64,000 nucleotides of DNA from assembly GCF_030064165.1 (NCBI RefSeq), contig NZ_CP125947.1, positions 3,658,001 to 3,722,000 on the forward strand, read 5' to 3'. Source of the stretch: Comamonas resistens. Its GTDB lineage: Bacteria; Pseudomonadota; Gammaproteobacteria; Burkholderiales; Burkholderiaceae_C. Below the pieces are notes generated by a model. The model was given only the letters and a program-made list of their open reading frames with translations. It searched no databases and was not told the DNA's origin. Both the position numbers and the translations under genes were made by a program. Position 1 is the first letter of the stretch. Every line of letters begins with the position of its first letter. Below are positions 3,577-12,761 of the stretch, piece after piece.

Positions 3577-4640
3577 GGATCCTCTGCACGAATCCACGCC
3601 TGATGTGCTTGCAAGGGCCTGAAGCCCAGACAATACAGACATGAAGCAAAGCAGCCTGGGCCTGAGCAACACCGTCAAGCGCACCCGCAAGCGCGAATTC
3701 CTGGACGCCATGGAGCTGGTGGTTCCTTGGGCTGAACTGGTAGCGCTGATAGCGCCCTACGCCCCCGAGAGTGGGCGGCGGGGTCAGCAGCCCTTTGCGG
3801 TGCAGACGCTGCTGCGCATCCACTTCATGCAGCAGTGGTTCAAGCTCAGCGACCCTGCAATGGAAGAAGCGCTGCATGATGTGCCTGCGTTTCGTGACTT
3901 CGCAGGTCTGGCAAGCCAAGGGCTTGCAGTTGAAGGCGGGCACCGTGGTGGATGCCACGCTGATTGCGGCCCCCAGTTCCACCAAGAACCAAAGTGGCGA
4001 GCGTGACCCCGAGATGCACCAGAGCAAGAAGGGCAACCAGTGGTACTTTGGCATGAAGGCCCACATCGGGGTGGATGCCGACTCGGGCCTGGTGCACACA
4101 GTGCGGGGCACGGCTGGCAACGTCAGCGACATCGTCGAAGCCAACAGCCTGCTGCACGGGCAGGAGACAGATGCCTTTGGTGATGCGGGCTACCAAGGGG
4201 CGGACAAGCGCCCCGATGCCAGGCAAGCCGTGTGCTGGCACGTGGCCATGCGCCCAGGCCTGCGCCGGGCGCTGGACAAAGACAAGCCTCTTGATGATCT
4301 GATCGACCAGCTGGAGCGCACCAAGGCGCGCATCCGGGCCAAGGTGGAACACCCCTTCAGGGTGCTCAAGCAGCAGTTTGGATATGTGAAGGTGCGCTAC
4401 CGTGGTTTGAAGAAAAACACGGCGCAGATCGTGACGCTGTTTGCCCTGTCCAACCTGTGGATGGCCAGGCACAAGCTGAAAGCCATGGCACAGGTGCGCG
4501 TGCAAGGGGCGTAATGCCCACGAAATCGGGGAATTGCATCCCCCTGGAGGCGCCTGGACAACGTTTGGGCGCCTTGCTGAGGCAGGCTTTATCTCACGGA
4601 CGGGCGTAGCTCACTTCCAAGTAATTCGTGCAGACCTTCC
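3577..4640 (+). mobile_element. Decayed IS5-family insertion sequence with terminal repeats and CTAA target duplication
   Basis: The element is bounded by imperfect 17-bp inverted repeats: left end 3577-3593 (GGATCCTCTGCACGAAT) and right end 4624-4640 (GGAAGGTCTGCACGAAT read inward), matching at 14 of 17 positions. Directly outside both ends is CTAA (3573-3576 and 4641-4644), fitting the 4-bp YTAR target duplication of the IS5 group. The element is 1064 bp and its transposase carries an internal deletion and frameshift, so it is not autonomous. Intact ends mean it could still be moved in trans. Confidence 0.88.
3641..4514 (+). pseudogene. IS5-family DDE transposase, internal deletion plus frameshift
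   Basis: The N-terminal third (3641 to about 3905) reads as an IS5 transposase ending in MEEALHDVPAFRDFAGL. The remainder, from about 3905 to 4514, continues in another frame with GTVVDATLIAAPSSTKN, the DAGYQG block and KARIRAKVEHPFR, which carry the three acidic residues of the DDE triad. In intact relatives about 40 residues lie between these parts (the DESTILRFRHLLEKH region), and they are missing here. The gene is therefore broken by an internal deletion that also shifts the frame, and cannot make a full transposase. Confidence 0.88.
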
Positions 4641-4735
4641 CTAAGTGCTGCAGGGAAGACAAACGTATTGTTCAAGCGGCACATGCTATTTTCCGTCCAT
4701 AGCGATCTCAAGCCGGCACAGGAACCAGTCTTTCA

Positions 4736-5548
4736 TCAAGTTTCCAACAAGGTCTGGATCCAAGAGTGAGCCATATCCCTCTCTCCGCTCAACAGAAACC
4801 GCATTTCGCCGCTGAAAGCACTGTCGACATGAATAGATTTCAATATTCGCGCAGCCACCCTTTTGAACGCTGGCTCTTGTAAAGCATCAGATTGTGTCGC
4901 AATGAACAGTGCCTTTGCCTCCTCAATATCCCCTAAAAGCTTTACAGCTTCTGAATGCCGCAGTTTGCAAGTTGGCTCGTGATGCAAATGGTATATTTCT
5001 ATCGAAATATCTGCACGCTGGCGTTGCTCGGGAATATCACTCGTGGCACAAGGCTTCCCATTCTCTTTTCTGCATCCTAAAAGCCGCCAATCCCCGACTT
5101 CGCAAGGATCGACCAGAATTGGTCGCTCGCCAGTGACAGACCCTGGCTCATAAACTCGGCGCGCCTCGTCTAACAGTGGGAACCTATCAGCCTTTCCACC
5201 GGCAGTGTCACCCTCGATATCTTTCCGGCGAGAATTGCAGAACGTGCAGGCATACCGAAAATTCGACTGTTCAAAAGCGAGCCAGCGATAACCTCTATGC
5301 TCATTCTCTGCGTCTCTTACGCGGCCTTTCGGTCGAAAATGATCAACGGCGTTATCCGAGCGAGGAACTGAAACTTCGCAATACCAACACTTGTCATTAA
5401 AAAGATTCGCCAATCCGTCTTTCAGTTCTCTCCAGATCCGGGCATAATCATCTGGATTCGCACCATTCTCGACTGCAATTTTTGCCGCAGCCGCACGCTC
5501 CAGCCAACCATCAGGCAAACGCAATCGCGTCGAGTCAATGTACCTCAC
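4736..5548 (-). CDS. ptuB: PtuB-like HNH endonuclease (TIGR02646-type), Septu-like nuclease subunit
   Basis: A 270-residue protein with a zinc-supported HNH/His-Me finger core: Cys54-x2-Cys57, Asp69-His70 in the DHFRPKG motif, then Cys101-x2-Cys104 with Asn105 and Arg107 (TFCNSRR). This is the layout of TIGR02646/PtuB proteins, the DNA-cutting partner of a PtuA ATPase in Septu anti-phage systems. The start is a GTG that overlaps the stop of the ATPase gene as GTGA, so the two are translationally coupled. It is the last gene of the operon, and the IS relic begins about 95 bp beyond its stop. The symbol is assigned by motif and pairing, not by alignment. Confidence 0.8.
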   Translation of the reverse strand: MRYIDSTRLRLPDGWLERAAAAKIAVENGANPDDYARIWRELKDGLANLFNDKCWYCEVSVPRSDNAVDHFRPKGRVRDAENEHRGYRWLAFEQSNFRYACTFCNSRRKDIEGDTAGGKADRFPLLDEARRVYEPGSVTGERPILVDPCEVGDWRLLGCRKENGKPCATSDIPEQRQRADISIEIYHLHHEPTCKLRHSEAVKLLGDIEEAKALFIATQSDALQEPAFKRVAARILKSIHVDSAFSGEMRFLLSGERDMAHSWIQTLLET

Positions 5549-7266
5549 TGATCGGGCTCCTGCTTATCGCGCTGCTCGGCAAGTAGTTCCCGAATGAGTC
5601 GCTGCCCCAACTCCTCCCGCTCTTCGGACTCCATTGCTATTGACCGGTTAGCTAACTGCTCCGGATCGTCCGACTCAAACTTAGCGCGCAGTGCAGCGCT
5701 TCTCAAGCGTAGGTAGCGGGAATACTCTTCATCGGGATGGAAAAATCGAAACCCAAGTCGTTCCAATTTAGAGTTAATTTCAGATAGGGCTGCGAGCTCT
5801 TCAGGTGTCAAGTGCTCTTTACCTGCGTATGCCCTTTGCCGCTCTAGGAGCAAATGCGTCGGCTGATCAAGCGTTGAGGCGATACCAAACATATCGCTTG
5901 TTACAATTGCAGCGTAGCCCAGGCCGCGCGGGTCAAGTTCCGGGTGCACGGCGACAATGCGCGTCGATTCTGCATCCTTTGATAACTGCAGAATTTGAAC
6001 CTGCTCCCGCACAAGCTCTGCAATTGCCAGCGGATTATGAGTGGTTAACAGTATATGGCTATTTTCCCGATCATCATTACTTTGACCAGCAAAGGTTCGT
6101 AGATAGTTGAAATAGTCGACGGCCCAACGTGGATTTAAGTGCGTATCGGGCTCATCCAGCAAGAAAAGACTTTCACTTTCAGCTGTAAATCTAAGCAGGC
6201 CTAAAACCGTCAATAGCTGTTGTTCGCCTTCGCTAAGTTCACGAAAGGTAACTGTCCCGTCATTCTTTTGGAGGCGCACCCGAATGCGTACTTCATCAAT
6301 TAGCTGGGAAACGTGGGTGCTTTCCATGTCACGAAAAAATTCAGCCGGACGCTGCTCACCCACCAGTTTGCGGAGCGAGGCGATGTCTTTAACGTATAAA
6401 TATTTGAATTGAAGTACCTTGTCGCTCCAAAGGGAAACGCGCTCACGACGGCTGAGCTCGACTGGGGCCAATGCAATATTGTAGAGGCGGTCCAGAAAAG
6501 AGGCGACGACTCCCTTAGCACGCCAAAAGCGAGGGTCTCCTTCTTTAGATGCCCAAGGGGGCTCTCGCAGTACAAATAAAACCGACTCGATCCCCTCATC
6601 TGGATCAATACCCAAGTGTTCGGCCAAAAAATTCCTTACATCATCGGACTGCTGAATAAGGAATGCCAGCAGGACAAACTGGCTATGTACTGGCATGGCA
6701 TAAAACAGTCTTTTTAATCCAGGATCCTCCCCCCGCCTTAATTTTTTATCAAAATCCTCCAAGTATGGACGGAATACTTGATAGAGCCGGTCACTTTCAC
6801 CTGAATAATAGGCAAATACATATCGCGGCAAATACCCGAATTTAGGATCGAAGAAACTCTTCAGCGGAATTCTTTTTCCTCGTAGGGCGGAGGTTTTCGA
6901 ACTTATCTCGAAAGAGGCGTCGAATAACTCATCGCTTTTAGCCTCTGCGTCTGTTGCGACATGAATAATAAGTGAATCACGCGGCCGATCCGGGTCAGCA
7001 TCAATATTGACGTGCAACGCAGTTGAACCAGAAGAAATCCTGTATTCAAGATTGAATGCAAATGCAGGTTTTCGCGCCCCTTGAATGAAGTCCCGGAAGA
7101 TGGTAGCAAGCGCCTCAAGTACATTTGACTTTCCCGTGCCATTCCATCCAATTACGACCGTAATCCAATGCTGCTGATCAAAGTCGATTGAGACATTTTT
7201 TAGATTTTTGAACTGATGCGTAGGGCTGCTTTTCGGGCTACCTATGGTGATCCTATCTAGGCGCAT
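5545..7266 (-). CDS. ptuA: PtuA-like AAA/ABC-type ATPase, Septu-like defence subunit
   Basis: A 573-residue SMC/ABC-like ATPase. Walker A is GWNGTGKSN (residues 40-48), the signature motif LSEGEQ is at 344-349, Walker B LFLLDE at 367-372, and the switch histidine is His410 in TTHNP. The C-terminal 160 residues are helical and charged. Proteins of this type pair with PtuB HNH nucleases in Septu, where the ATPase is thought to sense infection and gate the nuclease. Its start lies two bases beyond the hsdS stop and its end overlaps ptuB, so it sits inside an hsd operon rather than alone. It could also be described as an OLD-like ATPase, but it lacks a Toprim domain. Base composition is AT-richer than the chromosome to the right. 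Confidence 0.83.
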   Translation of the reverse strand: MRLDRITIGSPKSSPTHQFKNLKNVSIDFDQQHWITVVIGWNGTGKSNVLEALATIFRDFIQGARKPAFAFNLEYRISSGSTALHVNIDADPDRPRDSLIIHVATDAEAKSDELFDASFEISSKTSALRGKRIPLKSFFDPKFGYLPRYVFAYYSGESDRLYQVFRPYLEDFDKKLRRGEDPGLKRLFYAMPVHSQFVLLAFLIQQSDDVRNFLAEHLGIDPDEGIESVLFVLREPPWASKEGDPRFWRAKGVVASFLDRLYNIALAPVELSRRERVSLWSDKVLQFKYLYVKDIASLRKLVGEQRPAEFFRDMESTHVSQLIDEVRIRVRLQKNDGTVTFRELSEGEQQLLTVLGLLRFTAESESLFLLDEPDTHLNPRWAVDYFNYLRTFAGQSNDDRENSHILLTTHNPLAIAELVREQVQILQLSKDAESTRIVAVHPELDPRGLGYAAIVTSDMFGIASTLDQPTHLLLERQRAYAGKEHLTPEELAALSEINSKLERLGFRFFHPDEEYSRYLRLRSAALRAKFESDDPEQLANRSIAMESEEREELGQRLIRELLAEQRDKQEPDQ

Positions 7267-7268
7267 AC

Positions 7269-8897
7269 TTACACCGCCTTCAAACGGATGCGGTCGTAAA
7301 TTTTACGTCCCTGATCGTCATTGACGGCCTCCGTCTCCAGCTTTCCGGCCAAATCCAAATCTCGCAATTCCGAATACAATCGCTCAATCTCTTCGGTAGA
7401 CGCTCCGTCGCCGATTCCACAGCGCTGAAATACGTCTTGCGCAGGAAGCCAATTCTTCGCCTCTGTTAAAACCTGCTCAAGTGTTCTTTCTATCGCCATG
7501 AGTTTCTCCCGTGTCTGCCCCTGGTAGATCTGCTTTCGACTTTGAATTTTTCTGGGTTGTGCCACAAATTCTGCTTTGACACGCTCTAGCAAAGCCGACG
7601 CTGGTTCGTCACCTGCGTTTTGAGGAATCAGTTGTCCTTCAAAAGCTTTGGAGAGGAGTGCAGTGTCGAGCTTTTCCAGCAACTGAGAAGCACCACCGTG
7701 ACTGGCAGCGACCCGATCTAACCACATAAAAGTGCGTTCTATCCGACGAACAATCTCTACCGCTTCCTCAAAAGGAGGAACCGGCAGTGGCAGAGCCGCT
7801 ACCTTTCTTTTACTGATCGAAGCTAAATTTGTCGTCTGAGTACCTTCATCAAAAAAATATTGTTGACCACGCTCGTTAGAAAAATGAGAGACAAATTCTG
7901 GCGGCAAGGTCGCCGGTTTCATACGGATACGGAAAACGTGATTTTGGTGAATACATTCGTCAACTTCACCATTCCAGACCCACCCCCGCCCCAACTTATC
8001 ACGATCGCCCCCTTCGTTCATGAGCACGTCACCCTGTGCTAATAAAAGACGGGCTTTCTCTTCCGGGGTGACGAAAATCGTCTTGATCTCGTCAAGATTC
8101 AACCATCCCCTTTGAACATTGGCCACACGAAGATACGACACCTCAACTAGTTCTTCCTGTCCGCTTCTACGTTTCCCAACTTGGATTCCGCTTTGAATTT
8201 CACTGATATCGCCCAATCTTTGTATCGTCCACCCTTCGGGAAGACCAGAAGTAGTATCAGAATTACTGCCGCGAAGATCGGCTGTCAATTTTCCCGAGAA
8301 AGCTAATTCAAGCACTGCGGACTTATATGCCGCTAGTAGAGAAGGAATCTTCTTTAATTCGCTACGAGCACGCGCACTACGGGAAATCAAATTATCTATC
8401 TTGGCGACGATACGCTCTTGTTCTTGGAGAGGGGGCAGCAATAAGGGGTGGCTCCTTAAATAATCTGCCGGAACTCTTTGCTGACCAACTGCGCCAGACA
8501 TTACTTTTCGCGCGTTATCCCGAAAGCTCTGTTGGCGGATGAAATACCAAAGAAATTTCGGAAGAACCGCCCCTTTGCTTCGAAAGACGTGAAATTCCGT
8601 AGAGCCGAAACCTATCCCATTAGTAAGATTGGCAGCAACGGCAGCCTTTCCATTCTCCATGGAAGGCGTAATCTTCGCGAAGATCACATCATTTTCGGCA
8701 AACTGAGTGAACCCCTTATTAACTTGTCTAAGGGGGCGCCCCATCGGAGTGGCGATCGTCCCAGTTATTTCGCTAACAGCCGCCATAGGAACAAATGTTA
8801 CGAACTCATCTGGCGAAAGATCGACTGATTTGCGTGGGTTAACTTCCGCCACATCTGCAATATTAACGCTCACCCATCCCTGAGGAAGCTTACTCAT
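7269..8897 (-). CDS. hsdS: Type I restriction-modification specificity subunit with long C-terminal extension
   Basis: A 542-residue HsdS. Target-recognition domain 1 covers roughly residues 1-150 and is followed by a helical spacer (PPLQEQERIVAKIDNLI, near 155-172). Domain 2 runs from about 219 to 375 and has a second spacer. Each half begins with an LPxGW motif. Residues 445-542, after the usual HsdS ending, form an extra domain of about 95 residues that looks winged-helix-like. HsdS sets the DNA sequence recognised by the methyltransferase complex. The start at 8897 is chosen because GAGGAGG lies seven bases upstream, and it overlaps the end of a micro-ORF. Only 2 bp separate its stop from the ATPase gene. 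Confidence 0.93.
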   Translation of the reverse strand: MSKLPQGWVSVNIADVAEVNPRKSVDLSPDEFVTFVPMAAVSEITGTIATPMGRPLRQVNKGFTQFAENDVIFAKITPSMENGKAAVAANLTNGIGFGSTEFHVFRSKGAVLPKFLWYFIRQQSFRDNARKVMSGAVGQQRVPADYLRSHPLLLPPLQEQERIVAKIDNLISRSARARSELKKIPSLLAAYKSAVLELAFSGKLTADLRGSNSDTTSGLPEGWTIQRLGDISEIQSGIQVGKRRSGQEELVEVSYLRVANVQRGWLNLDEIKTIFVTPEEKARLLLAQGDVLMNEGGDRDKLGRGWVWNGEVDECIHQNHVFRIRMKPATLPPEFVSHFSNERGQQYFFDEGTQTTNLASISKRKVAALPLPVPPFEEAVEIVRRIERTFMWLDRVAASHGGASQLLEKLDTALLSKAFEGQLIPQNAGDEPASALLERVKAEFVAQPRKIQSRKQIYQGQTREKLMAIERTLEQVLTEAKNWLPAQDVFQRCGIGDGASTEEIERLYSELRDLDLAGKLETEAVNDDQGRKIYDRIRLKAV

Positions 8898-8994
8898 ATG
8901 TGGCCTCCTCGAAAACTGCATTCACCTCCAGCCCGCGGCCGTCTAAATAGGCAATTCCCTGAGTCACTGCCGAAACCAAGTTCGCGGCGATCAT
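8890..8994 (-). CDS. 34-residue micro-ORF coupled between hsdM and hsdS
   Basis: The ATG at 8994 overlaps the hsdM stop as ATGA. The frame runs 34 codons and stops with TAA eight bases inside hsdS. The peptide begins MIAANLVSAVTQGIAYLD and ends in an acidic stretch, with no signal or membrane segment. The hsdS ribosome site GAGGAGG lies inside this frame, so ribosomes finishing it would arrive at the hsdS start. It may be a genuine small protein or a translational-coupling spacer. The tight overlaps at both ends are direct observation; function is unknown. Confidence 0.5.
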   Translation of the reverse strand: MIAANLVSAVTQGIAYLDGRGLEVNAVFEEATYE

Positions 8995-10406
8995 TTGTCA
9001 GTCTCCGAGCTCTCAGCCAACTCGTCGGCAACCGCCTCTATCTCGCTCAGCGCGGCGCGTAGATGAAGTAGAATTGCCGCAGAAATGTCATCTGGTTCTG
9101 TAAGTCCATCTTCAGGATCTGCCTCCGTTTCAGAAAGCCATGAGATATTCAAATTATCGAATTTCTCGGCAATTTCTTCTCGACTAAAGCAGCGCCAGCG
9201 CCCCCCTTTACCTTGATCTTTACGTAATTTCATTGCCTCAAGATCAACGCCATATACGGCCTCGAATGAGGAGAAGTCCGCAGCCTGCAGGGGTCTTTTC
9301 TTTCCATATCTTGGGGCGTCATGGCGCATATCGTAAATCCATACGGCCCGAGTATTCCCAGTATTCTTTCGGCCACGGGTAAAGAAAAGAACATTCGTCT
9401 TCACGCCTGGACTATAGAATATCCCGGATGGCAATCTCAAAATCGTATGAAGATCGCAACGATTCATCAGATCTTGTCGAATTTTTCTTCCCACTCCGTC
9501 TTCGAATAAAGCGTTATCAGGGAGTACAACTGCTGCGCGACCACCTGGCTTAAGCCCTAAATATATATGCTGGAGAAAAGCGAGCTGCTTGTTGGTCGTG
9601 GCGTAAGCGATATCATCTCGTTGCTTTCTAGCGCTCCCAGCCTTTGATCCAAAAGGCGGATTTGCAAGAATGACGTCTGCGGGGGAGAGATCTTCTGCAT
9701 CTTTTGTTAGTGCATCACCAAGAATCAGATGAGCCTCAAGTCGATGGAGGAACGCATTCATGAGGCAGATGCGATACGTCCCTTTCTCAATTTCCACACC
9801 CTCATATCGTGGAGGATTACTCTTGTACTTCTTTTCACTCACTTGAGAACGCACATAGTGATCTGCTGAGATCAAGAAACCTCCGGTGCCGGTGGCCGGA
9901 TCCTGTATCACTTCCCCCAATCGTGGCTGAAGTAGCTTAATCATACAATCCACCAGGGGGCGCGGCGTAAAATACTGACCCGCACCGGATCGTGCATCCT
10001 GAGAGTTCTTCGCAAGCAGCCCTTCGTAAATACCCCCCATGCCATCAAATGTTATTGAATGCCAGTCAAGCTTTGCGATTCCATCAATAACCGCCTTGAG
10101 GTTTTCTGAATGCGAGAATACGGTTGTCGGGAAGGCATAAATTTTGCGCACTGCTTCGCTTGAAGCATGCGCGCCTAGGTACGTAAGCATTTCCCGATAA
10201 AAATCTAGAAGATTATCACCCTTATAAGCGACAAGATCGCTCCATCGTCTCCCATCTGGAATGAGATTCTCCGTCTTATTTTCCTCTGCAATTTTAAGAA
10301 AAAGAAGATAAGTCAGTTCCGAAATGTATTCGTGGTAGCTAACACCATCACCTCGAAGGACATGACAAAGGTCCCATATTTTTTGTACGATACTTTCAGA
10401 ATTCAT
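8991..10406 (-). CDS. hsdM: Type I restriction-modification DNA adenine methyltransferase subunit
   Basis: A 471-residue N6-adenine methylase of the HsdM class. The N-terminal HsdM helical domain covers roughly residues 1-130. The SAM-binding motif I is DPATGTGGF (169-177) and the catalytic motif IV is NPPF (249-252). HsdM with HsdS forms the modification complex that methylates adenines in a bipartite site. It is the first intact gene of the leftward defence operon. Its ATG overlaps the stop of an open frame that begins right after the antitoxin gene, suggesting an earlier upstream partner. GC is visibly lower than in the chromosome to the right, consistent with transfer. Confidence 0.95.
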   Translation of the reverse strand: MNSESIVQKIWDLCHVLRGDGVSYHEYISELTYLLFLKIAEENKTENLIPDGRRWSDLVAYKGDNLLDFYREMLTYLGAHASSEAVRKIYAFPTTVFSHSENLKAVIDGIAKLDWHSITFDGMGGIYEGLLAKNSQDARSGAGQYFTPRPLVDCMIKLLQPRLGEVIQDPATGTGGFLISADHYVRSQVSEKKYKSNPPRYEGVEIEKGTYRICLMNAFLHRLEAHLILGDALTKDAEDLSPADVILANPPFGSKAGSARKQRDDIAYATTNKQLAFLQHIYLGLKPGGRAAVVLPDNALFEDGVGRKIRQDLMNRCDLHTILRLPSGIFYSPGVKTNVLFFTRGRKNTGNTRAVWIYDMRHDAPRYGKKRPLQAADFSSFEAVYGVDLEAMKLRKDQGKGGRWRCFSREEIAEKFDNLNISWLSETEADPEDGLTEPDDISAAILLHLRAALSEIEAVADELAESSETDK

Positions 10407-10549
10407 AAATCCGACCTGGTAACTTTATGGCTTAAGACAGCCTGAATATATTTGAAAATTTGCTCTTGGCCGTCTTGCTTCCCCTGCCGACGCCATTGCT
10501 GCTCGATCAAGTTAACTTGTAGCCAACCCACCTCAAAATTGACTAGCCA
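10403..10549 (-). pseudogene. Apparent 3' remnant of a gene upstream of hsdM
   Basis: 48 sense codons run from directly after the antitoxin stop codon to a TGA that overlaps the hsdM ATG as ATGA. The peptide is protein-like (it includes VNLIEQQWRRQGKQDG and ends HKVTRSDL) but has no start of its own. Such stop/start overlap is typical of operon neighbours, so this may be the tail of a deleted upstream gene such as hsdR. I cannot match it to HsdR by eye. Confidence 0.35.
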
Positions 10550-10852
10550 TCAGATGATGGCCTGCAAGCCCTTGTCTGCAATTAAGTTGAGCAGCTTGAG
10601 CGCCGGGCCGGCCGGGCGAGTCTCGCCTTGCTCCCACTTGCGCACGGTCGATGCCGTGGTATGCAGGTGCAGCGCGAACACCGGCTGACTGAACTTCAAG
10701 CCTTCGCGCAGGCGCTTAATGTCGGCCGCGTCGAACTCCCGCACCGGCGGCGGGCAAATCGCGTCAAACTCGCGCATCGTCACCTTGCCGATGGCTCCTG
10801 CCTCGTGGAGCGCCGCCAGGTCGCCGCGCAGCGATTCAATGATCTTGCTCAC
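10550..10852 (-). CDS. higA: HigA/NadS-type antitoxin, XRE-family repressor
   Basis: A 100-residue protein with a C-terminal XRE helix-turn-helix: IKRLREGLKFSQPVFALHL, then TTASTVRKWEQGETRPAGPAL, the usual recognition-helix and WE(Q/R)G pattern of HigA-2/NadS antitoxins. It should neutralise the toxin encoded immediately upstream and repress their promoter. The two genes overlap by 17 bp with the toxin first, the usual HigBA order. The frame stays open beyond its TGA for 48 codons into hsdM, which is treated separately as a remnant. Confidence 0.9.
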   Translation of the reverse strand: MSKIIESLRGDLAALHEAGAIGKVTMREFDAICPPPVREFDAADIKRLREGLKFSQPVFALHLHTTASTVRKWEQGETRPAGPALKLLNLIADKGLQAII

Positions 10853-11219
10853 AATGCACCTCCATTAACACGCCAACCTGCAATGCTTTCGACAGGGCTT
10901 CTGCAGTCAGTTCCAGAAACACCTTGCCGGCGAATTGCAGCGCCTTCTTCTCATCCTGCGTGACGTTCGCCTTGTCGCTCTTGGGGAACCCATGTAGGAA
11001 CACATAGCGGCTGCCAATCCTGGCCGACAGCAGCGTGCGGTAGCCGCCGCTCTTCCCACCACCGGGACGGGCCACCCGCTTCTTGTAGAGGAAGCCGCCC
11101 AAGTCCGCATCAATCAGACCGCTTTCCATCTCCTGAACTGCCTTGCACAATGCAGCATCGGGCAGCTTCTCGCCCGCCTGCCACCGTGCAAAGTCCTTGC
11201 GCTTGAGGATGCTCTTCAC
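10836..11219 (-). CDS. higB: HigB-type RelE-superfamily toxin (PF06296-like)
   Basis: A 127-residue protein matching the HigB-2/RelE (DUF1044) family: MKSILKRKDFARW at the start, a Gly-rich YKKRVARPGGGKSGGYRT core and VFLHGFPKSDKAN, then a helical end. Such toxins are ribosome-dependent mRNA interferases. I chose the GTG at 11219 because GGAGG lies five bases upstream and family members begin with this sequence; the frame itself runs on to 11381 without a better site. It forms an addiction pair with the downstream antitoxin and probably stabilises the island next to the integrase. Confidence 0.87.
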   Translation of the reverse strand: MKSILKRKDFARWQAGEKLPDAALCKAVQEMESGLIDADLGGFLYKKRVARPGGGKSGGYRTLLSARIGSRYVFLHGFPKSDKANVTQDEKKALQFAGKVFLELTAEALSKALQVGVLMEVHCEQDH

Positions 11220-11231
11220 ATCAACCTCCAA

Positions 11232-11260
11232 ACTATACCCGTAACGGGCATATCTTTCAA
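11232..11260 (-). promoter_or_regulatory. higBA promoter with overlapping palindromic operator
   Basis: On the minus strand TTGAAA (11255-11260) and TATAGT (11232-11237) are separated by exactly 17 bases, a good sigma-70 promoter. The imperfect palindrome TATACCCGTAACGGGCATA (11234-11252) occupies the spacer and the -10, a natural site for the XRE antitoxin. The GTG start is only about 12 bases past the -10, so the transcript would be nearly leaderless. Confidence 0.65.
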
Positions 11261-11356
11261 TCCCTTGCCGTACCACCACGAGAGGAACGGTACGCTCGAT
11301 TGTTGTGACAGCGACACGACAATCGGGACAGGCAAGGCTGGGGTACCGGCCGCCGC

Positions 11357-12556
11357 TCATACCGTAGCTTCCGCAGGGCACGATGCGCCCGTAATCGCCA
11401 GCCGCCGACTCGCTACCAGTTCGGCGGCATCCCGTACAGGCTTGTCCTCGGTATGAACATAGTGCATAAACATCGCCACGGTCTTGTGACCTGTGAGCTT
11501 CATGCCCACCTTGGTTGGCACGCCCGAGTTGGCAATATCAGTGGTCGCCCGGTGGCGAATGCCGTGCGTGCCAACGTGCGGCACACCAGCGGCCTTGAGC
11601 ACGCGAGTCCAGCCGCCGTAGTGTTCACCGTGGGTCATGTGCCGAGTCGGATCGTTGGGCGAAGGTAGGACGTAGGGGCAGCCTTCCCGGCGCGGCGCTG
11701 TGGACAGCAGCCGATAGGCTTCCTCGCTCATGGGCTTGGAGATGCCGCCGGTCTTGCTGTCAGGCCAGACGACGCGGCGCTTCTCCAGATCAATCCAATC
11801 CCACTCCAGCGGGCAGATTTCGGAGCGGCGGGCGGCGAACTCGAACTGCAGGCGGATCGCCAGCGGGATGACGTAGTTCTCCAGTCCCTCAGATTCCAGA
11901 TACTTCAGGTGACGGAAGATCCGCACCAGCTCGTCATCCACGATGAGCCGAGTTTCCTTGCCGGGCGGGTACATCGGGACGTGACGGCACGGATTCGTGC
12001 CGTCAGGGCGCAGCCCCCACACTTCGGCCAGGTTGAACATCTTGCGCAGCACGCCGAAAGTGCGGTTCGCCTCGGCTTGCTTGTAGGCCAGCTTCTTCAT
12101 CAGCGCCGCCACGTCCGGGCGCTTCACATCCTGCACCTTCATCCGGCCCATGATCGGAATGATGCAGCGGTCAATCACGCCCTGATAGCCGCGCTGCGTG
12201 CTGGGCTTGTTGCGCTGTTTGGAATAGTCCTCCATGAAGGTGTGGCAAAACTCCTTCATGGTCGGTGCCTTGCGGGCGGCGTTCTTGGCCGCGCCGGGGT
12301 CGCCCCCCCTGCGCACCTCGGCCAGCCACTCCTGCGCCATCGTGCGTGCCTGATCGACCGTCAGTTCCCCGTACTGGCCCAAGGCGGGCTTGCGTCGCTC
12401 GCCGGCATTCGTGCGGTACTGGAGCATGAACACCTTGCGGCCCGCCGGGGTGATCTTGCACAGAAAGCCAGGCACCACGGTATCCCGCAGTTCGATGGCC
12501 TTGTCTTGAGGTTGCGCCGCATCGACTGCGGACTTGGTGAGCTTGATCTTCGCCAT
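11357..12556 (-). CDS. int: P4-type tyrosine integrase (DUF4102 N-terminus)
   Basis: A 399-residue site-specific recombinase. The N-terminal DUF4102 arm-binding region (about residues 1-85) is followed by a SAM-like core-binding domain (about 95-190) and the catalytic domain. Catalytic residues visible are Arg243 (AARRSEI), His331 and Arg334 (HGIRH), His357 (TGHKT) and Tyr366 (HYVHTED). The enzyme integrates and excises the island. It lies at the right-hand edge of the accessory region and reads inward, as integrases normally do beside an attachment site. All catalytic residues are present, so it appears intact. Confidence 0.95.
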   Translation of the reverse strand: MAKIKLTKSAVDAAQPQDKAIELRDTVVPGFLCKITPAGRKVFMLQYRTNAGERRKPALGQYGELTVDQARTMAQEWLAEVRRGGDPGAAKNAARKAPTMKEFCHTFMEDYSKQRNKPSTQRGYQGVIDRCIIPIMGRMKVQDVKRPDVAALMKKLAYKQAEANRTFGVLRKMFNLAEVWGLRPDGTNPCRHVPMYPPGKETRLIVDDELVRIFRHLKYLESEGLENYVIPLAIRLQFEFAARRSEICPLEWDWIDLEKRRVVWPDSKTGGISKPMSEEAYRLLSTAPRREGCPYVLPSPNDPTRHMTHGEHYGGWTRVLKAAGVPHVGTHGIRHRATTDIANSGVPTKVGMKLTGHKTVAMFMHYVHTEDKPVRDAAELVASRRLAITGASCPAEATV

Positions 12557-12735
12557 GATGACTCCTCGGAAAGCCCGGTTTCCAAGAGCCGCATGGGAGC
12601 CACGCGAGGGGAAGCCGGGTCAAGTTTCGGAAAGCACCGGCATATGTTGAACTCGCCTAAGTGATTGATAAACCTGCTGTATCGAGCCTTGGCGTAGTCC
12701 AGCGAAATGCGGTGCTGGAGTCATCGTGAAACAAA
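12557..12735. other. Probable right boundary of the island (attachment region)
   Basis: About 180 bp separate the integrase start from the terminator of the first chromosomal gene. No tRNA or tmRNA 3' end is recognisable. The attachment core should lie here by position, but I could not find a matching direct repeat elsewhere in the window; the partner copy is expected left of position 1. Confidence 0.35.
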
Positions 12736-12761
12736 AAAACGGCACCCGAAGGTGCCGTTTT
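12736..12761 (-). terminator. Rho-independent terminator of the nitronate monooxygenase gene
   Basis: AAAACGGCACC-cgaa-GGTGCCGTTTT: a stem of 11 bp with flanking A and T runs on both sides, able to work in either direction. It separates the chromosomal gene cluster from the island. Confidence 0.85.

Follow-up and report, generated by a model that had tools for sequence, protein, structure and literature searches.

A type I methylation pair, hsdM-hsdS, is combined in one leftward operon with the ATPase and nuclease genes of Septu, ptuA and ptuB, in Comamonas resistens (assembly GCF_030064165.1, NZ_CP125947.1, positions 3,658,001-3,722,000; this whole stretch of 64,000 nt is referred to as the window), and the operon has no hsdR. 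Type I systems are thought to require HsdR. The four-gene unit recurs in related loci from which HsdR is repeatedly absent, and the HsdS encoded beside ptuAB carries an additional C-terminal winged-helix tail, which co-occurs and covaries with PtuA. From the sequences, a coupling of HsdMS to PtuAB appears well supported, because the ratio of nonsynonymous to synonymous substitution rates (dN/dS) is low, the recognition domains turn over, and the HsdS tail both occurs and covaries with the ATPase. The reading to which we give about half of our confidence is that hsdMS-ptuAB is one functional unit, in which HsdMS marks self and gates PtuAB via the tail, and PtuAB replaces HsdR.

The operon and its products

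A sequence-only reading of the window had described five tightly packed leftward frames and the lack of hsdR. All five frames are present, the four named genes form one close-set operon, and no hsdR was detected in the window or beside it. The features are as follows.

8991..10406, minus strand: hsdM, N6-adenine methyltransferase subunit, 471 aa (PADLOC MTase_I, 644 bits; N6_Mtase and HsdM_N; motifs DPATGTGGF and NPPF)
8889..8994, minus strand: micro-ORF of 34 codons that bridges hsdM and hsdS, unconserved beyond near copies
7269..8897, minus strand: hsdS, specificity subunit, 542 aa (PADLOC Specificity_I, 892 bits; the open frame reaches 8921)
7488..7559, minus strand: disordered linker of HsdS, about residues 447-470 counted from the start at 8897 (predicted local distance difference test score, pLDDT, <50 at 451-469)
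7272..7490, minus strand: C-terminal winged-helix tail of HsdS, about residues 470-542, a candidate PtuA-docking domain (from conservation, AlphaFold2, fold comparison and covariation)
5545..7266, minus strand: ptuA, ABC-like ATPase, 573 aa (PADLOC PtuA1, 944 bits; AAA_21)
4736..5548, minus strand: ptuB, HNH nuclease, 270 aa (CxxC, DHFRPK, N96 and CN motifs; PADLOC PtuB1, 345 bits)

In the window sequence, the hsdM/micro-ORF junction is ATGA, the ATG of hsdS sits within the 3' end of the micro-ORF, 2 bp separate hsdS from ptuA, and ptuA and ptuB overlap by 4 bp at GTGA. The true start of hsdS is likely at 8897, after GAGGAGG; the resulting 542 aa equal the length of the database cluster P0122. 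Comparison across loci identified the Walker A (GWNGTGKS), signature (LSEGEQQ), Walker B (LFLLDEPD) and TTHNP motifs of PtuA, and the catalytic motifs are intact in the proteins of the cassette. The PtuA family profile matched 9n69_A ('AAA family ATPase', E 2.5e-11) and 9vh1_D, the ATPase of retron Ec78 (E 1.2e-4), and the PtuB family profile matched the solved PtuB chains 9vh1_F of retron Ec78 (E 4.6e-7) and 8ee7_C (E 0.0015). The CxxC cysteines are partly missing in some PtuB lineages (L073, L077, L086 and kin; CWYT in 12 loci, SCIVAN in 10), where metal binding may differ, as judged from the residues.

The micro-ORF was considered as a conserved small protein and rejected: among twelve junctions it was identical only in two near copies of the locus (L009 and L010), and it was unconserved in the other nine examined. 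It is probably a spacer or translational coupler. Between hsdM and hsdS, L012 (7516-8448), L017, L059 (shortened), L063 and L066 encode DUF4357 or a homologous protein, and L019, L055 and L060 have short frames that by eye resemble the start of DUF4357; the micro-ORF of the window bears no clear resemblance to this protein.

The four-gene set and the state of HsdR

A census was made by searching genome contigs with the PtuA alignment, which gave 134 relatives; the best 80 of 134 were kept and, with the window, made 81 loci. All four genes were found in 76 of the 81 loci (with broken frames in L031, L057 and L058), so the association is more than chance. Four of the remaining five end at a contig edge, and the fifth, L083, has only a broken piece of ptuA and no hsd genes. 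The order is hsdM-hsdS-ptuA-ptuB in 36 loci and hsdS-ptuA-ptuB-hsdM in 41, and could not be determined in 4 of the 81. In five loci of the latter order a gene of the YhcG-type PD-(D/E)XK nuclease family lies within the operon, between ptuB and hsdM (L042, where it was scanned, L047, L048, L053 and L069).

A large homologous gene lies upstream in 39 loci, and in all eight scanned it encodes an EcoEI-type HsdR (PF08463 and a helicase). A profile made from TIGR00348 seeds scored this type weakly (14 hits), and two family-specific profiles were added. With the profiles and tblastn, the 81 loci were found to hold a full HsdR in 37 cases and a fragment in 8 (L015 and L042 among them); HsdR was absent from 23 loci with at least 4.5 kb visible on either side (24 counting L083, which was left out of the HsdR-less count) and from 3 with only the left side visible, and its state was undetermined in 9. 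The proposal of a strictly HsdR-less arrangement therefore fails, as 37 of the 60 decided loci, a majority, carry a full hsdR, although the four-gene unit itself does recur. The HsdR-less loci span four phyla (Pseudomonadota, Bacteroidota, Myxococcota and Cyanobacteriota). In the stretches fetched of the plasmid loci L131, L132, L139 and L140, HsdR was found neither by profile nor by annotation. Similarity searches gave no near match in E. coli genomes and one distant match in phages. On the viral contigs L145 and L146, a distant PtuAB (33-37% identity) follows an hsdM-hsdS of another HsdM family; HsdR had no match in L145 and one match in L146.

Controls not anchored on PtuA were taken from two sources. 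HsdM-anchored viral contigs (the best 80 of 246 relatives) included 52 loci of this HsdM family, the 28 of 80 under 450 bits not being counted as such. HsdR was present in 43 of the 48 viral loci without PtuAB (of the others, 2 end at a contig edge and 3 are without HsdS), and in 3 of the 4 with PtuAB, the fourth (L191) ending 1.5 kb upstream. The second source was the host's class, in which 36 of 369 genomes matched, the host included, and 28 of the 37 listed places were fetched. Twenty places had HsdS; none of the 20 had this PtuAB and 19 had HsdR, which was seen only as pieces at an edge in L230 and L249. At L253, the sole place without HsdR, hsdM is broken and a related ATPase (92 bits) is present. 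On plasmid L137, which is without PtuAB, a DUF4145 protein and a transposase occupy the HsdR position. HsdM-HsdS loci without PtuAB thus almost always keep HsdR (43/48 and 19/20). Fisher tests on the HsdR counts, which treat loci as independent although they are not, gave p values of 1e-6 against the viral contigs and 0.004 against the class genomes; the counts entered were 24 HsdR-less loci, with L083 among them, and 18 of the 19 class controls that have HsdR.

HsdR elsewhere in the genome

An HsdR encoded at another place in the genome could act in trans, and the host does encode three HsdR-like proteins. However, each of the three genes lies within a few kb of another hsdM. The nearest match to a ResIII helicase in the host is about 73 kb outside the window, and one more place in the host matches a helicase only weakly (22.8 bits). 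Searches with the family HsdR alignment covered 22 genomes and then 11 more, 29 of them with an HsdR-less cassette; a few of these cassettes are contig-limited and some of the genomes are draft assemblies. A full family HsdR was found elsewhere in only one of the 29, G120 (Comamonas composti, 1459 bits), and weak relatives (223-334 bits) were found in four other genomes and the host. Four control genomes with HsdR in the locus were recovered at 1049-1752 bits; as the query alignment includes these very HsdRs, they show only that the search works. After these searches of 81 loci by profile and tblastn and of 29 genomes, an HsdR hidden nearby or acting in trans was rejected as scarcely credible.

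A winged-helix tail on HsdS

Alignment of 74 full-length HsdS sequences revealed that the HsdS beside ptuAB ends in a conserved domain of 60-70 residues, which follows a basic linker. The tail profile was positive in 4 of 5 plasmid ptuAB loci (L131, L132, L139 and L140; not L138) and in 0 of 5 plasmid loci without ptuAB, in 4 of 4 viral HsdS with ptuAB and 0 of 41 without, and in 0 of 20 class genome controls. Independently of the profile, 90-108 residues follow the conserved HsdS motif in 12 of 13 ATPase-adjacent HsdS, which separates them from the rest. This length test covered 76 loci, and the tail was not measurable in 18 of the 76; it included plasmid loci, from L130-L140, picked partly via PtuA or HsdR matches, and L172 and L173, which look like copies of one sequence. 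Four long HsdS without an adjoining ATPase were also seen, three of which were misreadings with a recognition domain after the motif, and the fourth was L253.

The AlphaFold2 model of HsdS (mean pLDDT 89.3) shows two coiled coils, formed by long helices, and two recognition domains by secondary structure and confidence, of which Pfam finds one. The last 85 residues were modelled as a winged helix (pLDDT 84.8), tethered to the main body of HsdS by the disordered linker. Fold comparison of the tail returned many winged helices, and the top rows include those of kleisins from SMC-head (structural maintenance of chromosomes) and cohesin structures (6qpq_D, 5h66_C, 6yuf_B and 1w1w_E); the likeness in the model is a hint only. 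Foldseek gave no match to the tail at E <=0.001. A search of plasmids with the 85-residue piece returned nothing, though the profile detects L131, L132, L139 and L140, and this search was too insensitive.

A C-terminal HsdS extension that the tail profile misses is also present beside weakly PtuA-like ATPases (L130, L161, L171, L241 and L253), while the HsdS of L228, with an ATPase of the same kind, has no extension. L161, L171, L241 and L253 were classed as weakly PtuA-like, and the assignment to TIGR04435 covers L130 and L258 only. In L258, a Priestia aryabhattai plasmid, hsdM-hsdS is followed by a TIGR04435-type ATPase (3819-9595), with no annotated hsdR in the stretch seen. Such loci, in which hsdM-hsdS comes with an ATPase either of TIGR04435 type or weakly like PtuA, may represent a parallel system. 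As judged from these comparisons, the HsdS tail appears to be a new feature, which occurs beside PtuA and was not found on HsdS without such an ATPase.

Covariation of the tail with PtuA

Covariation was analyzed over 67 loci, leaving out the near copies L009 and L010. The tail varied with PtuA (r 0.89; partial on HsdM, 0.85), and the coiled coils of HsdS with HsdM (r 0.84; partial on PtuA, 0.79). The recognition domains varied strongly with neither protein (0.24 and 0.23). The cross terms were nonzero: 0.18 for tail and HsdM given PtuA, 0.34 for tail and coiled coils given PtuA, and 0.28 for coiled coils and PtuA given HsdM. In locus pairs of different gene order, the value was 0.87 for tail and PtuA and -0.38 for tail and HsdM. 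Within PtuA, residues 1-345 gave 0.84-0.85 with the tail and residues 461-573 only 0.50; the latter segment correlated with PtuB (r 0.90, in genome loci with full-length PtuA, PtuB and HsdM), and this C-terminal part is a candidate PtuB-docking tail. The covariation could thus be read as a chain, HsdM - HsdS coils - HsdS tail - PtuA - PtuB. The main caveat, which weighs against the model of one functional unit, is that adjacency in the DNA could yield part of the covariation.

These data bear on whether PtuAB is an ordinary Septu that acts alone in a type I hotspot, with HsdMS as a bystander. Unrelated defence genes do embed in type I operons, such as DarTG2 between hsdS and hsdR (PMC12255303, in the part of the article available), and DUF4357 and YhcG genes occupy slots in the same operons. 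An independent cargo nevertheless leaves unexplained why the HsdS tail is linked to an ATPase and covaries with PtuA beyond HsdM. Nor does it explain why HsdR is missing from 23 of the 60 decided PtuAB loci when HsdM-HsdS loci that have no PtuAB almost always retain it. We regard this explanation as improbable.

Selection and phylogeny

In pairs of loci in which no HsdR was seen (L059/L063, L059/L060, L082/L086 and L074/L075), dN/dS was 0.08-0.13 for HsdM, 0.03-0.05 for PtuA and 0.06-0.11 for PtuB; for L059 and L063 the visible upstream sequence is only 2.5 kb long, but a search of the two genomes found no family HsdR. The recognition domains were 21-30% identical in L059/L063 and L059/L060 (both domains) and in L082/L086 (second domain), and 82-88% identical in L074/L075 and for the first domain of L082/L086. 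The HsdR-bearing pairs L022/L028, L049/L050 and L067/L071 show a like turnover. HsdM, PtuA and PtuB thus appear to be under purifying selection while the recognition domains turn over, and in self/non-self systems one would expect just this, a specificity that changes fast on machinery that is conserved.

Decay of a type I system after the loss of hsdR, towards an orphan methyltransferase accompanied by leftover genes, would account for the HsdR fragments and for the broken cassette frames described above. It would hardly produce 23 HsdR-less loci in four phyla, low dN/dS in HsdM, PtuA and PtuB with the catalytic motifs kept, or an HsdR-less block that spread recently between orders, and such decay is very improbable. 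The many lineages, the low dN/dS, the turnover and the tail together suggest a form other than a decaying one.

In the PtuA tree (78 of the 81 rows, since loci with short or broken proteins were left out of the trees), at least 11 changes of HsdR state are required, 8 of them forced by starred branches, while shuffled labels gave 17.3-17.5. The window groups with five other rows (support of 99 in the Shimodaira-Hasegawa-like approximate likelihood ratio test, SH-aLRT), and the HsdR-less loci are scattered. A tree of concatenated PtuA, PtuB and HsdM (72 of 81 loci; support values not read) has a 14-locus HsdR-less clade around the window. A single deep HsdR-less clade was rejected in favour of repeated change, as the PtuA-only tree scatters these loci, and the conflict between the two trees likely reflects recombination between modules. 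The sequence-only reading had also offered that Septu was captured by a type I locus that later lost hsdR. This fits, because the EcoEI-type operons in which PtuAB sits have in many cases kept hsdR (37 full versus 23 without), although the counts on the tree do not tell gain from loss.

A model for the unit

In the proposed mechanism, HsdS would be a modular adaptor, whose recognition domains read DNA and whose coiled coils hold HsdM. Its tethered C-terminal winged helix would dock on the PtuA ATPase, and the C-terminal part of PtuA would hold PtuB. HsdMS would methylate host sites as the self mark, and on meeting unmodified or otherwise non-self target DNA it would gate PtuA, which would release the PtuB nuclease onto that DNA or onto a host substrate such as tRNA. 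PtuAB would take the place of HsdR in the lineage of the window. Physical docking, gating by methylation state, the target of the nuclease and phage defence are what we infer from the observations above. The idea that HsdMS provides self-marking while PtuAB cuts had come from the sequence-only reading; its coupling is supported by the tail, the covariation and the selection, and the cutting of unmodified DNA by PtuAB is a hypothesis. A more specific form is that HsdM2S senses target methylation and activates the SMC-like head of PtuA via the kleisin-like winged helix of HsdS, and that the tailed HsdS is a plug-in serving several effector families, including the TIGR04435-type loci; we put this forward tentatively, as somewhat less probable than the unit itself.

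The main rival is a guard like PrrC, in which the HsdS tail keeps PtuAB silent and phage interference with HsdMS frees a suicide nuclease; DNA-mimic anti-restriction proteins could act in this way, and methylation would not be the trigger. According to the available text of PMC12707154, PrrC, whose gene lies within a type I locus, becomes active when that system is inhibited by Stp of phage T4, and a Septu cleaves tRNA-Tyr (PMC13096335, from the part at hand), as does a PrrC-type toxin. The tail would serve equally as a leash, and HsdR is also retained in many loci. On the other hand, the HsdR-less loci have no HsdR restriction to guard, yet their HsdM is under purifying selection, and most of the pairs compared show turnover of the recognition domains, which would be expected were sequence-specific marking important. 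A guard seems unlikely to us, though less so than the other alternatives.

To our knowledge, the trigger of Septu is an open question. If the unit operates as proposed, a Septu ATPase tied to a sequence-specific methyltransferase would give PtuAB a defined, programmable trigger. It would also help to explain why ATPase toxins gather beside hsdS in type I loci, and one small added domain would have re-tooled a DNA-recognition subunit for a new effector.

The mobile block around the operon

Three genes lie directly upstream of hsdM, and they accompany it in Comamonas composti and Luteimonas padinae.

10550..10852, minus strand: helix-turn-helix (NadS/MqsA-like) antitoxin-type gene, common to L009 and L010
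10836..11381, minus strand: RelE-family toxin-type gene (PF06296, 145 bits)
11357..12556, minus strand: tyrosine integrase (PF00589, PF13356)

The block 4641-12742 is 99.1% identical in L009 (C. composti) and 99.9% in L010 (L. padinae), species that belong to different orders. The mobile element may be larger, because the sequence to the left of the block is also common to the copies, at about 94%. The guanine-plus-cytosine content of the operon is about 0.47-0.53, against 0.60-0.67 in the surroundings. Beside ptuB, the window has an IS5-type element (3578-4640), absent in the near-identical L009 and L010, whose transposase is split over two overlapping frames (3641-4006 and 3771-4514). No reverse transcriptase was found among six scanned neighbours (integrase, RelE, helix-turn-helix gene, two IS5 frames and DUF932).

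Comparison with known systems

In the literature covered, with preprints and most subscription papers lying outside it, we recognised no account of an hsdMS-ptuAB unit without HsdR, nor of an HsdS tail linked to an ATPase, and this silence is weak evidence of novelty. Already known are other defence genes embedded in type I loci (PMC12255303, as far as its available text goes) and the related 'restriction system-associated' ATPase of NCBI.

The pair resembles Septu, which PADLOC names as type I and, with a reverse transcriptase, type II (PMC8565338, in the portion available): the PtuA-type ATPase and the adjoining PtuB-type HNH nuclease with its motifs are both present, as in PADLOC septu type I. 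It differs in that ptuAB is embedded within an hsdM-hsdS operon. The accessible part of PMC11555353 describes cleavage of tRNA-Tyr by the PtuAB of retron-Eco7 and cites another Septu as cutting nicked DNA. The PtuAB of retron type I-A (Ec78) is distinct, as the window proteins score 46.9 of 500 (PtuA) and 17.1 of 150 bits (PtuB) on its models.

MADS is similar by its NCBIfam model names, which list a DNA methyltransferase, a specificity subunit and an AAA ATPase, but the window proteins fall far under the MAD2, MAD3 and MAD5 cut-offs (90/720, 38/420 and 30/400 bits). In BREX type 1, the BrxX methyltransferase has a winged helix after an HsdS-like spacer (PMC12839542, from the section available), and an HNH-OLD ATPase is among the accessories, while here HsdS is separate and the nuclease is PtuB; the best 25 PADLOC rows for the cassette's four proteins include no BREX family. 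TIGR04435, the 'restriction system-associated AAA family ATPase', is likewise encoded after hsdS within a type I operon, by annotation in L130 and L258, where the gene that follows it has no name; the PtuA of the window scores 139 bits against a cut-off of 300.

The cassette resembles type I restriction-modification of the EcoEI-type HsdR subgroup in the NPPF motif of HsdM, in the two recognition domains and the coiled coils of HsdS, and in having relatives that carry EcoEI-type HsdR; it differs by having no HsdR and by the extra winged-helix tail of HsdS. PrrC and DarTG2 also place a toxin or nuclease gene inside a type I operon (PMC12707154, PMC12255303), the PrrC locus being ordered HsdR, HsdS, PrrC, HsdM (PMC11555353). 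As described in the available parts of these sources, such loci retain HsdR, whereas here HsdR is often gone and the ATPase-nuclease pair comes with a dedicated HsdS tail.

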